From: Isoptericola halotolerans
GTDB lineage: Bacteria; Actinomycetota; Actinomycetes; Actinomycetales; Cellulomonadaceae
Direction: 5' to 3'
DNA: 64,000 nt
Assembly: GCF_003003075.1 (NCBI RefSeq)
Contig: NZ_PVTX01000001.1
Coordinates: 496,001 to 560,000, forward strand
Shown here: piece after piece, positions 19,990-24,503 of the stretch
Layout: each line of letters begins with the position of its first letter
Numbering within the stretch: the first letter of the stretch is position 1
Made by a program: the position numbers and the translations under genes
Notes under the pieces: generated by a model
What the model saw: only the letters and a program-made list of their open reading frames with translations
What the model was told of the DNA's origin: nothing
The model's database searches: none

Positions 19990-21009
19990 ATGGTCACGGT
20001 GCACGACGTCGCCCGGGTGGCCGGCGTGTCCATCTCCACGGTCTCGCGGGCGCTCGCCACGCCGGAGAAGGTCGCCGACGCGACCCGGGACCGGGTCCAG
20101 GCGGCCGCCCGTGAGCTCGGCTACCGGCCCAACCGCGCCGCGGCGGTGCTCCGGGCCGGTCGCTCGGGTGCCTACGGCCTCGTGGTCCCCGACCTCGCCA
20201 ACCCCTACTTCGCCGCCGTCGCCAAGGGCGCCCAGGAGCGCGCCCGCGAGCGCGGCGCCGGGCTGTTCATCGTGGACACCGACGAGGACCCCGACCTCGA
20301 GGCGGAGGCGATCGGCGCCCTCGCCCCGCAGACCGACGGCGTCGTGCTGTGCTCGCCGCGCGCCCCCGCCCGCGCGCTCGACGCCCTCGGCGGACGCCCC
20401 GTCGTGCTGATCAACCACGACGTCGACGGCGTCCCTGCGGTCGAGGCCGACCATCGCGGCGGCATGCGGCGCGCCCTCGAGCACCTGCGGGCCCTCGGCC
20501 ACCACCGCATCGCCTACGTGGGCGGGCCCGAAGCGTCCTGGAGCGACCGTCGCCGTCGGGCCGGGCTCGCCGACGCCTCGGCCCGCTACGACGACGTCGA
20601 GATCGTGGCGCTCGGAGCGTTCCGCCCCCAGGTGGAGGGCGGGCAGGCGGCGGCAGACCTCGTGGTGGCCTCGGGCGCCACCGCGGTGATCACGTTCAAC
20701 GACCTCGTCGCGGTCGGGCTCGTCGATCGTCTCCGCGCCCGTGGCCTCGACGTGCCGGACGACCTGTCCGTCGTCGGCTGCGACGACTCCTACGTCGCCT
20801 CGCTCGTCACCCCGCCCCTGACCACGCTGCACGTCGACCTGCGCCGGCTGGGCCGGCTCGCCGTCGACCGTCTCGTGGCCACGGTGCCCGGCCGAGGGGC
20901 CGGGACCGGGGCCGGCGTCGCGCCGGACGTGCCGGTACTCGACGTCGAGCTCGTGGTGCGCGCCTCCACCGCACCGCCCGCCGCTGACCGTCCCGAAGGA
21001 GCCCTGTGA
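19990..21009 (+). CDS. LacI-family regulator of glucuronate genes
   Basis: A 339-residue repressor starting MVTVHDVARVAGVSISTVSR after agggaggg. The LacI helix-turn-helix is at residues 3-25 and the hinge ends near YRPNRAAAVLRAGRSGAYGL. The sensor domain carries GLVVPDLANPYFAAVAKGAQ and DDLSVVGCDDSYVASLVTPP. It is co-transcribed with uxuB (4-bp GTGA overlap) and divergent from uxaC, with two operator-like sites between. Fructuronate or glucuronate is the likely inducer by context. Confidence 0.9.
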   Translation: MVTVHDVARVAGVSISTVSRALATPEKVADATRDRVQAAARELGYRPNRAAAVLRAGRSGAYGLVVPDLANPYFAAVAKGAQERARERGAGLFIVDTDEDPDLEAEAIGALAPQTDGVVLCSPRAPARALDALGGRPVVLINHDVDGVPAVEADHRGGMRRALEHLRALGHHRIAYVGGPEASWSDRRRRAGLADASARYDDVEIVALGAFRPQVEGGQAAADLVVASGATAVITFNDLVAVGLVDRLRARGLDVPDDLSVVGCDDSYVASLVTPPLTTLHVDLRRLGRLAVDRLVATVPGRGAGTGAGVAPDVPVLDVELVVRASTAPPAADRPEGAL

Positions 21010-22538
21010 ACGACCGCCTGCACCGCGACACCGTCCCTGCCGACCTCGAGGCCCCGCTGCACCCCGAGTCGGTGGGCATCGTCCACCTGGGGATCGGTGC
21101 GTTCCACCGCGCCCACCAGGCCGTGTTCACCGAGCTCGCCGCCCGCTCCCGCGACGACCTGCGCTGGGGCATCCTCGGGGTGACGCAGCGGTCAGCGTCG
21201 GTGCGGGATCAGCTCCGGCCGCAGGGGGGCGTCTACTCGGTGCTGACGGCGGGCCGCGACGAGTCGTCGCTGGACCTCGTCGGCTCGGTGCTCGACGTCG
21301 CGTGGCCGGCCGAGGAGACGCCGCGCGTCCTCGCGACGATCGCCGCCCCCACCACCCACCTGGTCACGCTGACGGTGACGGAGAAGGGCTACTGCCGCGA
21401 CGCCCGTGGCGGGCTCGACCTGGCGCTGGTGCGACCGGACCTCGACGCGCTGGCCGCCGAGCAGGAGATGACCGCCGCGGTCCAGGACGGCGGGCAGACG
21501 GCGGCGTCCGCCGCGATCGGGCTGCTCGTGCGCGGTCTGGCCGCCCGCTACCGGGCCGCCTGCGAGGCCGGGGAGGCGCTGCCCCTGACGGTGCTCACCT
21601 GCGACAACATGGTGGACAACGGCCGGGTGCTGGAGGGGCTGGTCCGCACGGCCGTGGACGCCGCGGTGCCCGGCGACACGGGCCTGCGCGCCTGGCTGGA
21701 CGCCCACGTCACCTTCCCGTGCTCGATGGTGGACCGCATCGTGCCGGCCACCACCGCCGAGCAGCGCGACGCCGTCGGACGCCGGCTCGGGGTGCGCGAC
21801 GAGGGCCTGGTGGTCGGCGAGCCGTTCCGGCAGTGGGTCATCGAGGACCGGTTCGCCGGGCCCCGGCCCGCCTGGGAGGACGCCGGCGCCACCCTCACCG
21901 ACGACGTCGCGGTCTGGGAGCGCGCCAAGCTGCGGCTGCTCAACGGGACGCACTCGCTGCTCGCCTACGCGGGCCGGCTCGCGAGCCGCACGACCATGGC
22001 CGAGGCCGTCGAGGACCCGGCGATCGCGCAGCAGGCGCGCCGGCTGCTCTTCGAGGACGCGCTGCCGACGCTGACGGCTCCGGCCGGCGCGGACCTGGAG
22101 GCCTACGGCGAGTCGCTGCTCGAGCGGTTCGCGAACCCGGCGACCGGGCACACGACGCTGCAGGTCTCGATGGACGGCACCCAGAAGATCCCGTACCGCT
22201 GGGGCGACACCGTGGTCGAGCGGCTTGCCGCCGGCGTCGTGCCGCTGGGTGCCGCTTTCGCGCTGGCGGCCTGGTCCGAGGTGGTGCGCCGGGAGGCGGT
22301 CGCCGGACGGGGGGTCGACGACCCGCGGGCTGACGAGCTGCGTGCCGTCGTCGCCGCCGTCGGCCGCGGTGACGCAGGGGCCGCGCGCCCCGACGACGTG
22401 GCCCGGGCCCTCACGGCGTTGCCGGGCCTGCTGCCCGGCGGGGCGGGCACGGACCCGGTGCTGCTCGACGCGGTGGCTGCGGAGGCCGCACGGCTGGCCG
22501 CGGCGGAGCCGGCCACCACGGAACCCGTCGCGAGGTAG
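21006..22538 (+). CDS. uxuB: Mannitol dehydrogenase family protein, D-fructuronate reductase
   Basis: A 510-residue NAD-dependent long-chain polyol dehydrogenase starting at a GTG that overlaps the LacI stop by 4 bp. The Rossmann domain begins VGIVHLGIGAFHRAHQAVFT, and the catalytic lysine motif KLRLLNGTHSLLAYAGRL is intact. TCDNMVDNGRVLEGLV and the DGTQKIPYRWGDT segment fit the UxuB/UxaB group. It should reduce D-fructuronate to D-mannonate. Mannonate dehydratase (UxuA) is not in this window. The TAG stop lies inside the first unit of the repeat array that follows. Confidence 0.88.
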   Translation: MNDRLHRDTVPADLEAPLHPESVGIVHLGIGAFHRAHQAVFTELAARSRDDLRWGILGVTQRSASVRDQLRPQGGVYSVLTAGRDESSLDLVGSVLDVAWPAEETPRVLATIAAPTTHLVTLTVTEKGYCRDARGGLDLALVRPDLDALAAEQEMTAAVQDGGQTAASAAIGLLVRGLAARYRAACEAGEALPLTVLTCDNMVDNGRVLEGLVRTAVDAAVPGDTGLRAWLDAHVTFPCSMVDRIVPATTAEQRDAVGRRLGVRDEGLVVGEPFRQWVIEDRFAGPRPAWEDAGATLTDDVAVWERAKLRLLNGTHSLLAYAGRLASRTTMAEAVEDPAIAQQARRLLFEDALPTLTAPAGADLEAYGESLLERFANPATGHTTLQVSMDGTQKIPYRWGDTVVERLAAGVVPLGAAFALAAWSEVVRREAVAGRGVDDPRADELRAVVAAVGRGDAGAARPDDVARALTALPGLLPGGAGTDPVLLDAVAAEAARLAAAEPATTEPVAR

Positions 22539-22720
22539 TGCCCACCGCCGCGAGGTAGTGCCCTACGCACCGAGGTAGGGGCGAGCGCCGCGAGGTAGTG
22601 CCCACGGCGCCGAGGTAGGGGCGAGCGCCGTGAGGTAGTGGCGCATCTCGCGAGGTAGTGGACACCGCGCCGAGGTAGGAGCGAGCGCCGCGAGGTAGTT
22701 CCTTTCGCGCCGAGGTAGTG
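22531..22720 (+). repeat. Ten direct repeats CGAGGTAGTG at exact 20-bp period
   Basis: cgaggtag(t/g)(g/t/a) begins at 22531, 22551, 22571, 22591, 22611, 22631 (first base t), 22651, 22671, 22691 and 22711, ten copies with no drift. The 10-bp spacers vary, but gcgagcgccg recurs after the three copies ending in gg or ga (22571, 22611, 22671). The uxuB stop codon lies in copy 1. The 20-bp period cannot keep one reading frame, so coding is unlikely. Confidence 0.9.
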
Positions 22721-22819
22721 CCACCTGCGGGCGTGGTCTCCTCGTCGTACGGCCCGCGCCTTCCTGCAGGCCCGCCGTGGTCCGCCGGCGGGCATTGACG
22801 ACGTCACCGGGCCGGGGAA

Positions 22820-22910
22820 TACCTCGGCGGGGTCGCTACTACCTCGGCGAGCCGCCCACTACCTCGGCGAGTTCCTCGCTACCTCGGCGAGTTCCTCATT
22901 ACCTCGGGGA
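22820..22910 (-). repeat. Five inverted copies of the same repeat, also at 20-bp period
   Basis: tacctcgg(c/g)g(a/g) begins at 22820, 22840, 22860, 22880 and 22900, the reverse complement of the CGAGGTA core upstream and again spaced exactly 20 bp. Spacers include gttcctcgct and gttcctcatt. A 100-bp GC-rich segment (22721-22819) without the repeat separates the two arrays. RNA from this region could fold into several alternative long hairpins. Confidence 0.9.
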
Positions 22911-23207
22911 GCAGTCGCCGACGGCGGAGCGCGCCGTGCGGCCCGCGTGGTCGCCGTCGAGCGGGGCGCATGGCGTGAGACCTCGATCACCTATCCTCGA
23001 CAATGTTGTGAGCGCTCACATCCGCCCCGCGGACGGGCAGGTCGGGACCGACCGGAGCCCGGTGCTCGTTGCCGGATCGTGATGAAGCGCTTTCCCGGAG
23101 GGGCTGGACACGCGGGCTGAGACCTGTATTGTATCGTTTCAAGCCGACGGGACAGAGGCGCCACAGGGGGCATCTCGGCGTCGGCACACCTGAGCAAGGA
23201 GGCTCCG
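22911..23207 (+). promoter_or_regulatory. Regulatory region upstream of the second sugar transporter
   Basis: 297 bp without a gene. It holds tgtgagcgctcaca at 23007-23020, a perfect 14-bp palindrome identical to the core of the ideal symmetric lac operator. It also holds gaagcgctttc at 23084-23094, another GCGC-centred LacI-type site. A third site, ttgtatcgtttcaa at 23129-23142, resembles the TTGAATCGATTCA sites of the rhamnose locus. The ribosome site caaggagg precedes the ATG at 23208. Control by more than one LacI-family protein is inferred. Confidence 0.65.
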
Positions 23208-24503
23208 ATGAGGATCACGCGCAAGGCCGCCGGCGCAGTCGCCGCGACCGCCGCCATCACTCTCGTCCTGACCGCGTGCGGCGGCGGCGACTCGACCGAC
23301 TCCGGAGACGGCGAGGGTGGCGACGTCACGCTGACCGTCGCCTGGTGGGGCAACGACGACCGTGCCGCGAAGTACGAGGAGTCGATCGACCTCTTCGAGG
23401 AGGCCAACCCGAACGTCACCGTCCAGACCCAGTTCCAGGCCTGGGACGACTACTGGACCGCGCGCAACACGGAAGCCGCCGGCCAGTCGCTCCCCGACGT
23501 GTTCCAGATGGACCTGTCCTACCTGCGGCAGTACGGCAGCACCGGTCAGCTCGCCGACCTCTCCGGCAGCTCCATCGACACCGCCGGCTTCGAGGAGGCG
23601 CTCCTCAGCTCGGGTCAGATCGACGGCGCCCAGTACGGGATCCCGACCTCGCAGAACACGCTCGCCCTCTTCTACAACGGCGACCTCCTGGACGAGCTCG
23701 GCATCGAGCCGCCCGCCGAGGGCTACACCTGGGAGGACTACAACGCCTTCGCCGCCGAGGTCTCCGCGGCGGGCGCCGACATGGACCCGCAGATCTACGG
23801 GACCGGCGACTACACCGGCACCTTCTGGTTCTTCCTGCAGTGGCTGATCCAGCAGGGTGAGCAGCCGTTCACCGACGACGGCCAGCTCGCGTTCGACGAG
23901 GCGCAGATGACCGAGTTCCTCAACCTCGCCTCGGACCTGCGCGAGTCGGACGCGCTCTTCCCGGCCGAGCGCACCACCCAGCTCCTGCCGCTGGGCGGCT
24001 TCACCGTCAACGAGGCGGCCTCGGAGATGAGCTGGGACAACTTCCTGGCCGGCTACATCTCCGACTCGGGCACCGAGAACATCCAGATGCTGCCCATGCC
24101 CTCGGGCGACAACGGGCCGCAGCAGTTCTGGAAGCCCTCGATGCTGCTCTCCTCGGGCGCCAACTCCGAGAACCCGGAGGAGGCCGCCGCGCTGATCGAC
24201 TTCCTGGTCAACGACCCGGAGGTGGGGCGGATCTTCGGCACCTCGAAGGGTGTCCCGGCCGTGGCCGCCCAGCGTGACGCGATGGAGGTCGAGGAGGGCT
24301 CGGTCGACGCGACCGTGCTCGCCTACGAGGAGGCCGTGGCCCCCGACGTGACCGAGCCGGCACCGCTGCCCGTCGAGGGCTTCGGCTCGATCGAGGCGGA
24401 GTACAAGCGCCTGGCCGAGGAGCTCGGCTACGGCAACATCACGGTCGACGAGTTCGTCGAGCAGTGGTTCCTGTTCGCCGCCGACGCCGTCGGCCAGTCC
24501 TGA
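23208..24503 (+). CDS. Extracellular sugar-binding lipoprotein (UgpB/MalE type)
   Basis: A 431-residue solute-binding protein starting MRITRKAAGAVAATAAITLV, with lipobox LTAC and the lipidated cysteine at residue 24. The mature domain shows DVTLTVAWWGNDDRAAKYEE and DVFQMDLSYLRQYG, typical of cluster-1 (COG1653) sugar-binding proteins. It is followed by a 16-bp hairpin and two permeases, the usual layout in which the binding protein is made in excess. It lies upstream of a rhamnogalacturonan lyase gene, so rhamnogalacturonan oligosaccharides are the likely ligands. Confidence 0.92.
   Translation: MRITRKAAGAVAATAAITLVLTACGGGDSTDSGDGEGGDVTLTVAWWGNDDRAAKYEESIDLFEEANPNVTVQTQFQAWDDYWTARNTEAAGQSLPDVFQMDLSYLRQYGSTGQLADLSGSSIDTAGFEEALLSSGQIDGAQYGIPTSQNTLALFYNGDLLDELGIEPPAEGYTWEDYNAFAAEVSAAGADMDPQIYGTGDYTGTFWFFLQWLIQQGEQPFTDDGQLAFDEAQMTEFLNLASDLRESDALFPAERTTQLLPLGGFTVNEAASEMSWDNFLAGYISDSGTENIQMLPMPSGDNGPQQFWKPSMLLSSGANSENPEEAAALIDFLVNDPEVGRIFGTSKGVPAVAAQRDAMEVEEGSVDATVLAYEEAVAPDVTEPAPLPVEGFGSIEAEYKRLAEELGYGNITVDEFVEQWFLFAADAVGQS

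Follow-up and report, generated by a model that had tools for sequence, protein, structure and literature searches.

Tandem arrays of a short asymmetric core at two-turn spacing lie at gene ends in Isoptericola and its relatives

The end of the uxuB gene of Isoptericola halotolerans carries an array in which a short asymmetric core recurs on a strict 20-bp lattice; the observation is real, and the family to which this array belongs is much larger than was first noted. Arrays of this type lie at dozens of gene ends in this genome and in those of related soil bacteria, their core is conserved within a species and differs between species, and at one orthologous gene end different species carry different cores and pitches. 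It appears, with about as much to be said for the idea as against it, that the arrays are cooperative binding lattices at gene ends for a putative fast-evolving DNA-binding protein, a reading that rests on sequence comparison. More tentatively, and with the balance tilting somewhat to the negative, they may represent a new class of chromosomal element, in which lattices for a filament-forming, sequence-specific protein would mark many gene ends across the genus. The sequence recognised by this protein (CGAG-GT/TC/AT-AG with an extension) and its pitch (20 or 22 bp) would vary from species to species, while some lattice positions would persist.

The window analysed here is the whole stretch of 64,000 nucleotides comprising positions 496001-560000 of contig 1 of the 3.85-Mb genome; its array-bearing part is laid out in Table 1. 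Genes were called by a simple codon-bias script, whose calls in the window look sensible ("called gene" denotes the script's own call throughout), and the uxuB product matches the Pfam families Mannitol_dh and Mannitol_dh_C. The initial annotation of this DNA had described ten direct copies of a unit repeated every 20 bp without drift, the first of them containing the uxuB stop codon, followed after approx. 100 bp by five copies in the opposite orientation at the same period, and this description was borne out. Direct reading places the GAGGTAG cores at 22532, 22552, 22572, 22592, 22612, 22632, 22652, 22672, 22692, and 22712, all ten being exact, and the base that precedes the core is C in nine of the ten and T in one (22631). 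The inverted copies of TACCTCGG start at 22820, 22840, 22860, 22880, and 22900, again by direct reading; the full CTACCTC is exact in three of them and carries one mismatch in each of the two outer ones. The further claim that the unit ends in TG was too narrow, as approx. 7-8 bases are common to all forward copies and TG is frequent but not constant. The sequence CGAGGTAG occurs 18 times in the window, 12 times within the two arrays, compared with a mean of 1.28 and a largest count of 5 in shuffled sequences (n = 100). The palindrome listed in Table 1 lies outside the array, is also present in G140 and G142, and is a marker of the conserved promoter side. Another sequence, CTGTATTGTATCGTTTCAAG, is found at 23124-23143, upstream of the gene for the solute-binding protein, and also in some relatives. 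Both TGTGAGCGCTCACA and CTGTATTGTATCGTTTCAAG look like operator and promoter elements.

Table 1. Features in and around the array at the uxuB end (positions within the window).
Feature	Position	Strand	Description
uxuB	21006..22538	+	called frame; mannitol dehydrogenase / fructuronate reductase family; stop codon formed by the TAG of the first core
forward array	22531..22718	+	ten GAGGTAG cores, period exactly 20 bp, diverged spacers
inter-array stretch	22719..22819		approx. 100 bp without a core
inverted array	22820..22907	-	five copies of TACCTCGG (CCGAGGTA on the - strand), period 20 bp
perfect palindrome TGTGAGCGCTCACA	23007..23020		upstream of the solute-binding protein gene; direct reading
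solute-binding protein gene	23208..24503	+	extracellular, ABC transporter type; next gene after the arrays

The uxuB array is far from solitary. The genome of I. halotolerans contains 236 GAGGTAG-n13-GAGGTAG pairs, i.e., cores exactly 20 bp apart, and none of the same pattern read backwards, whereas all other spacings between 8 and 39 bp together yield eight pairs (five at 21-39 bp and three at 8-19 bp, with one match in each range in the reversed-pattern control). Dense arrays also occur in relatives, so that both the genome and its relatives hold the further arrays for which the initial annotation had proposed a search. Pairs of GAGGTAG at 20 bp were found in 37 of the 221 genomes of the family: within the genus of I. 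halotolerans (18 genomes), 15-286 pairs are present in 11 genomes and 3 in another, and the remaining six lack them; in the genus labelled g6, 16 of 17 genomes have 3-27; G173 has 29; and eight further genomes of the family have 1-3. Judging from equal pair counts, we infer that G137 is Krasilnikoviella flava, G139 Isoptericola AK164, G134 I. chiayiensis, G125 a Cellulosimicrobium, and G173 Oerskovia flava. Array density is high in most Isoptericola and Krasilnikoviella genomes and lower in Cellulosimicrobium. A relaxed three-core pattern (CGAGNNAG at 20 bp), which is blind to other cores or pitches, matched 8 of 396 genomes of the order; outside the family it returned no true array in 361 genomes of the order, the two matches there (G298 and G366) being 10-bp repeats. 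The same pattern found no array in 220, 200, and 220 kb of G140, G135, and G147, respectively, and the array system thus appears to be dispensable. No earlier description of such arrays was found in open-access papers, a search whose coverage leaves out most subscription journals; the accessible parts of PMC3733652 and PMC12306157 do not name these genera, and repeats are merely counted in the accessible part of the AK164 genome paper (PMC10425560).

Cores are nearly invariant, and spacers are mostly local. Among lattice slots bounded by exact cores (a count that leaves out array ends with decayed cores), 530 of 541 hold an exact core and the other 11 a core with one mismatch. In I. halotolerans, agreement at spacer positions is 0.41-0.75 between adjacent units and 0.28-0.64 between loci, reaching 0.92 and 0.93, respectively, at the last position, which adjoins the core; positions in the middle of the unit agree between loci at approx. 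0.24-0.65 per base. Within a species, unlinked loci have an extended core in common, which differs between species (GAGGTAGGCAAC in AK164, GAGGTAGTnC in K. flava, and GAGGTAGCGC in RH36, where the three bases after GAGGTAG are constant in 69 units from 24 arrays). Identical spacers at different loci are few (4, 1, 3, 2, 3, and 3 in six species sets), exceeding the shuffle mean in five of the six sets and the largest of 200 column shuffles in none (in I. halotolerans, 4 compared with a mean of 0.89 and an equal largest value of 4). Units therefore appear to arise mainly locally, perhaps with a little copying between loci. Where two arms are paired, their spacers agree better within a locus than with other loci (0.70 vs. 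0.49 in the named Isoptericola set and 0.64 vs. 0.59 in I. halotolerans), and in the former set arm-arm matches of at least 0.9 identity number 12 of 91 within a locus and 4 of 728 with other loci. Beyond the core, the arms are complementary mainly near the centre of the pair, which indicates an inverted duplication and may allow cruciforms or hairpins. The gap between paired arms ranges from 2 to 145 bp; in pairs of the Cellulosimicrobium group it is 13 bp in nine of ten cases, some of which may be orthologous loci, and the 20-bp lattice is kept through the inversion.

The core itself switches between species. Pairs of AGTCAGCGC number 265 in G136 and 199 in G141, with none in the other 16 genomes of the genus and one in G191, elsewhere in the family; CGAGTCAG-n12-CGAGTCAG pairs number 249 in G136, 201 in G141, and 55 in G146, with none in the other 15 genomes of the genus, two in G069, and one in G161. 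Since GAGGTAG pairs in these three CGAGTCAG genomes amount to 3, 0, and 0, respectively, the core types are almost mutually exclusive between genomes. A third core, CGAGATAGAGA, stands in G142 at a pitch of 22 bp (four arrays in the 289 kb examined, with six spacings of 22 bp and one of 21 bp), and one such 22-bp array occurs in G144 besides its 15 GAGGTAG pairs. The gene fabH, present in 17 of the 18 genomes, illustrates the switch at an orthologous position, as eight of the 16 fabH ends examined carry an array (five GAGGTAG, two GAGTCAG, and one GAGATAG) and eight carry none, and G142 has a single GAGGTAG at the fabH stop. Different cores in different species are likewise found at the ends of genes for a LacI-type regulator and a nudix protein. 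Among 15 uxuB orthologues, only those of I. halotolerans (G000), G145, and G136 are followed by arrays, which are of GAGGTAG type with different spacers in the first two and of GAGTCAG type in G136; uxuB of G140 ends in one GAGGTAG without an array. Because half of the fabH ends and most uxuB ends lack arrays, it follows that arrays turn over. In the uxuB tree, G136 and G141 group together (100/99) among GAGGTAG species; they also group together in the fabH tree, a single-gene tree with weak deep forks that places G146 with G139.

The main rival of the protein lattice is a self-writing repeat, i.e., a minisatellite without host function in which site-specific nicking or slippage duplicates 20-bp units at gene-end cores. 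Arrays would then persist at gene ends since genes and promoters do not tolerate them, and the core would stay intact since only units that bear it are duplicated again; the upkeep of the core could thus reflect a repeat-writing enzyme instead of selection by the host. Spacers are more alike within an array than between loci, so units come at least partly from local duplication, and such a mechanism would also suit the uxuB array of G145, which by direct reading is a repetition of part of the 3' end of uxuB itself, as well as the spacers common to forward and inverted arms and the high turnover at fabH. However, spacers are far more diverged than the cores of the same units, whereas simple turnover would homogenise both; spacings other than 20 bp are almost absent from the I. 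halotolerans genome; and the strong inward orientation of paired arrays in GAGGTAG species (see below) is not obviously expected. We consider self-writing a serious contender, albeit an unlikely one.

Of the 235 arrays in four sets of loci, not one is contained in a called gene. The gene ends that flank arrays are three-prime in 242 cases and five-prime in 87. Array-bearing intergenic regions are convergent in 84, tandem in 65, and divergent in 10 cases, and array-free regions of at least 40 bp, drawn from the same loci and hence from loci chosen for having arrays, in 40, 219, and 122 cases, respectively; convergent gene pairs are thus enriched and divergent ones depleted among array-bearing regions. 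Only one of 152 arrays lies within 300 bp of a tRNA, and an association with tRNAs was set aside. A single array is present in 105 of the 159 array-bearing regions. In GAGGTAG genomes, lone arrays between tandem genes are in sense orientation in 35 cases and antisense in nine, and paired arrays face inward in 44 cases and outward in one; in CGAGTCAG genomes this inward rule fails, with five inward and three outward pairs. Inward-facing blocks of direct repeats resemble the ends of Tn7- or Mu-like transposons, and the arrays might accordingly be regarded as degenerate ends of such a transposon or of a MITE, with direct repeats bound by the transposase. This is very improbable given the prevalence of single arrays, the variable gap between arms with no defined spacing, the many arrays that start at stop codons, and an identity of spacers between loci that stays within the shuffle range.

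The abutment of arrays and stop codons could also be viewed as a three-frame stop cassette, in which a TAG every 20 nt would stop all reading frames after the gene, since 20 cannot be divided by 3. Of 112 sense arrays, 39 provide the stop codon of the preceding gene as the TAG of their first core, and for eight others this codon is located at the second core; TAG stops end 51 of the 112 genes that precede sense arrays, compared with 99 of 651 genes overall (a background that includes the 112). Nonetheless, the sense strand of the CGAGTCAG core lacks a stop codon, antisense arrays exist, and arrays lie up to 523 bases past the stop, and the cassette is hardly credible. In CGAGTCAG genomes, TGA terminates 25 of the 26 genes upstream of arrays, and some stops coincide with the antisense TGA of the core; for this reason, abutment to the gene end looks like a rule and not like a translation signal.

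The initial annotation had also suggested that forward and inverted copies could form many alternative RNA hairpins. The whole 380-nt stretch does fold at z -4.29 because both arrays are present, but the forward array alone gives z -0.43 and the inverted one -0.62, which weakens this reading. Most lone arrays fold no better as RNA than shuffles: on the sense strand, the mean z is -0.70 for 72 arrays of named Isoptericola and Krasilnikoviella loci (15 below -2 and 57 above) and -0.48 for 15 arrays of the I. halotolerans genome (two below -2). The lone CGAGTCAG-type arrays of G136 and G141 have a mean z of -1.71 on the sense strand (n = 13, six below -2), which speaks against the protein lattice; together with the spacer complementarity near the pair centre, these stabler folds leave room for an RNA or cruciform role. 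No Rfam family matched at gathering score in 22000-23500, and no terminator-like site (GC hairpin followed by a T run) was found in 22400-23250. It might be supposed that the paired arrays form a transcript hairpin that serves as a (possibly bidirectional) terminator or stabilises mRNA 3' ends. The 3'-side position, the inward pairs and the excess of sense over antisense lone arrays in GAGGTAG species, and the fold of the complete stretch would fit such a role, as would the fabH ends, where several array-free relatives have an ordinary hairpin at the place of the array and the centre of the G143 and G144 arrays is a perfect palindrome (both seen by eye). Hairpins outside the arrays (stem 10) are also rarer in array-bearing regions when region length is not matched (25 of 70 with lone arrays, 11 of 36 with pairs, and 133 of 218 without arrays). 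However, this deficit is not significant in length-matched comparisons (12 of 44 vs. 15.9 expected, with 213 of 2000 draws as low; 6 of 24 vs. 8.4, with 350 of 2000 draws as low; and, in a further count, 31 of 64 vs. 123 of 234), and the replacement of terminators by arrays was accordingly dropped as an explanation. Given, in addition, the poor folds of single arrays, arms that pair beyond the core mainly near the centre, the lack of a terminator-like site in the segment searched, and the majority of regions with a lone array, an RNA element is quite unlikely.

Several known systems resemble the arrays in part. In common with the GTAG- and CGTC-tagged REP, BIME, and REPIN elements, they are short dispersed intergenic repeats that are numerous in a genome and frequently occur at 3' ends and as inverted pairs; the core contains GTAG and the layout is 3'-intergenic and in many cases inverted, both of which recall GTAG-tagged REPs as presented in the accessible part of PMC3733652. 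Unlike those elements, the arrays consist of direct repeats on a strict 20/22-bp lattice, with a species-specific core, a unit without a conserved palindrome, and spacers that are not clearly dispersed (their identity between loci lies within the shuffle range), and the CGAGTCAG and CGAGATAG cores lack GTAG. Moreover, the PF01797 profile of the Y1 (RAYT) transposase matched in none of the 18 genomes of the genus, and the control was positive in 5 of 14 named genomes. That the arrays are REP/BIME elements spread by a RAYT transposase is extremely improbable. Judged by repeat layout, they differ from CRISPR in their 7-13-nt core, partly related spacers, and many arrays per genome; the earlier statement that the layout is neither that of a CRISPR, nor of a MITE, nor of an ordinary terminator holds as far as tested.

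Rep iterons and ParR repeats, such as those of pSK41, are asymmetric or short tandem cores spaced at approx. two helical turns and bound cooperatively. The arrays share with iterons and plasmid centromeres the short tandem cores at approx. two turns and, putatively, the cooperative binding, but they occur as many chromosomal gene-end arrays instead of at one origin or centromere, and their partner protein is putative. The Sal boxes of TTF-I, which form eukaryotic polar terminator arrays, are tandem oriented protein sites downstream of genes; in contrast to them, the present arrays are bacterial and genome-wide, with a putative role in termination. Pneumococcal BOX and neisserial dRS3/NIME elements are, like the arrays, dispersed modular intergenic repeats of variable copy number, but we know of no fixed two-turn lattice or lineage-switching core among them. 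In Streptomyces, BldC oligomerises asymmetrically, head to tail, on direct repeats that vary in number, are AT-rich, have a step of AATTXXXX(C) per protomer, and are located at promoters (accessible part of PMC5859096). Both systems are actinobacterial, whereas the arrays have GC-rich cores, a longer step of 20/22 bp, and a gene-end location.

Two turns of B-DNA measure 21 bp and fall between the observed steps of 20 and 22 bp, which favours DNA-bound proteins. The arrays also have the asymmetric tandem core at approx. two helical turns that characterises an iteron-like lattice. Among the readings offered initially, that of a protein array has gained from the strict two-turn spacing, from cores that are specific to a species and switch between species, and from the variant at 22 bp, although the binder is putative. 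Under the protein lattice reading, the asymmetric sites would be bound by a putative sequence-specific protein that oligomerises head to tail along the DNA, the pitch of the oligomer being approx. two helical turns (22 bp instead of 20 bp in one variant). The lattices lie in intergenic DNA at the 3' ends of genes, for the most part between genes that converge or directly after the stop, with inward pairs in GAGGTAG species. They were probably born locally, by duplication from a single gene-end core of the kind seen at uxuB of G140 and fabH of G142, and may have been retained since the protein needs both core and spacing. The likely effect would be a filament at the ends of transcription units that blocks read-through and antisense transcription; alternatively, the filament might deal with supercoils between convergent genes. 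As to the gene for such a protein, a self-regulated factor encoded by a recurrent neighbour of the arrays was considered and set aside, as the 14 largest neighbour clusters contained no clear candidate: the largest (7 species), which includes an ABC-type ATPase, looks mixed, and another, of a LacI-type regulator, spans three species (K. flava, G141, and G113).

If the arrays do form a new class of element, they would constitute a bacterial gene-boundary system with arms-race-like co-evolution of a protein and its sites. The presence of many exactly spaced sites in a genome, with a sequence that changes among species of a single genus, implies that an active partner exists. Were this partner to act on RNA polymerase, it would be part of a transcription-end device unlike hairpins or Rho; were it to act on topology, supercoil control between convergent genes would become testable; and a self-writing repeat would entail a previously unknown duplication mechanism with a fixed two-turn step. 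Given three cores, two pitches, and array-free species, the partner should be findable by comparative genomics and pull-down.

Several minor observations concern similar repeats elsewhere. In other phyla, Halorubrum, Nonomuraea, a cyanobacterium, Marseilla, and an alphaproteobacterial MAG have 2-9 pairs per genome. In Halorubrum salinum, a single array (L035, 4540-4586) comprises three copies of GAGAGGTAG at 20 bp; its spacers are diverged, it lies between called genes that converge, and the genome contains no further GAGGTAG pair at 20 bp. A Chloroflexota (Anaerolineales) MAG (G222; L129, 3115-3194 and 5335-5427) has a dispersed repeat with the core TAGTCCCGGTTCC (16 pairs at 20 bp in 1.9 Mb); this MAG was rejected as a carrier of the same arrays, as the repeat is different, has mixed 20- and 27-bp steps, and in some cases overlaps called genes. 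Ten viral contigs matched the GAGGTAG triple and none matched CGAGTCAG; one match is another tandem repeat, and nine (IMG/VR contigs L265, L267, L268, L269, L270, L271, L272, L273, and L274) are 10-bp tandem repeats, whose step is half that of the bacterial arrays and which in six of the nine contigs have the identical flank TGGTCTTCCGT. Within the genus, G140, G135, and G147 contain a small number of isolated 17-24-bp tandem repeats that differ in sequence from the arrays, and intergenic tandem repeats with 17-24-bp steps and unrelated cores were seen in G142, G147, and G140 (L206, 15841; L309, 7504; L325, 543; L315, 16330); these could be further variants or ordinary minisatellites. The array places of L034, a record named Sphaerisporangium cinnabarinum ATCC 31213, equal those of G118 of the Cellulosimicrobium group, and the record is therefore probably a Cellulosimicrobium. 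Finally, GAGGTAGTCGAGGTAG occurs near the starts of two contigs of the I. halotolerans assembly (G000:C1:15-30 and G000:C13:486-501), so that contig breaks may fall at arrays or other repeats.
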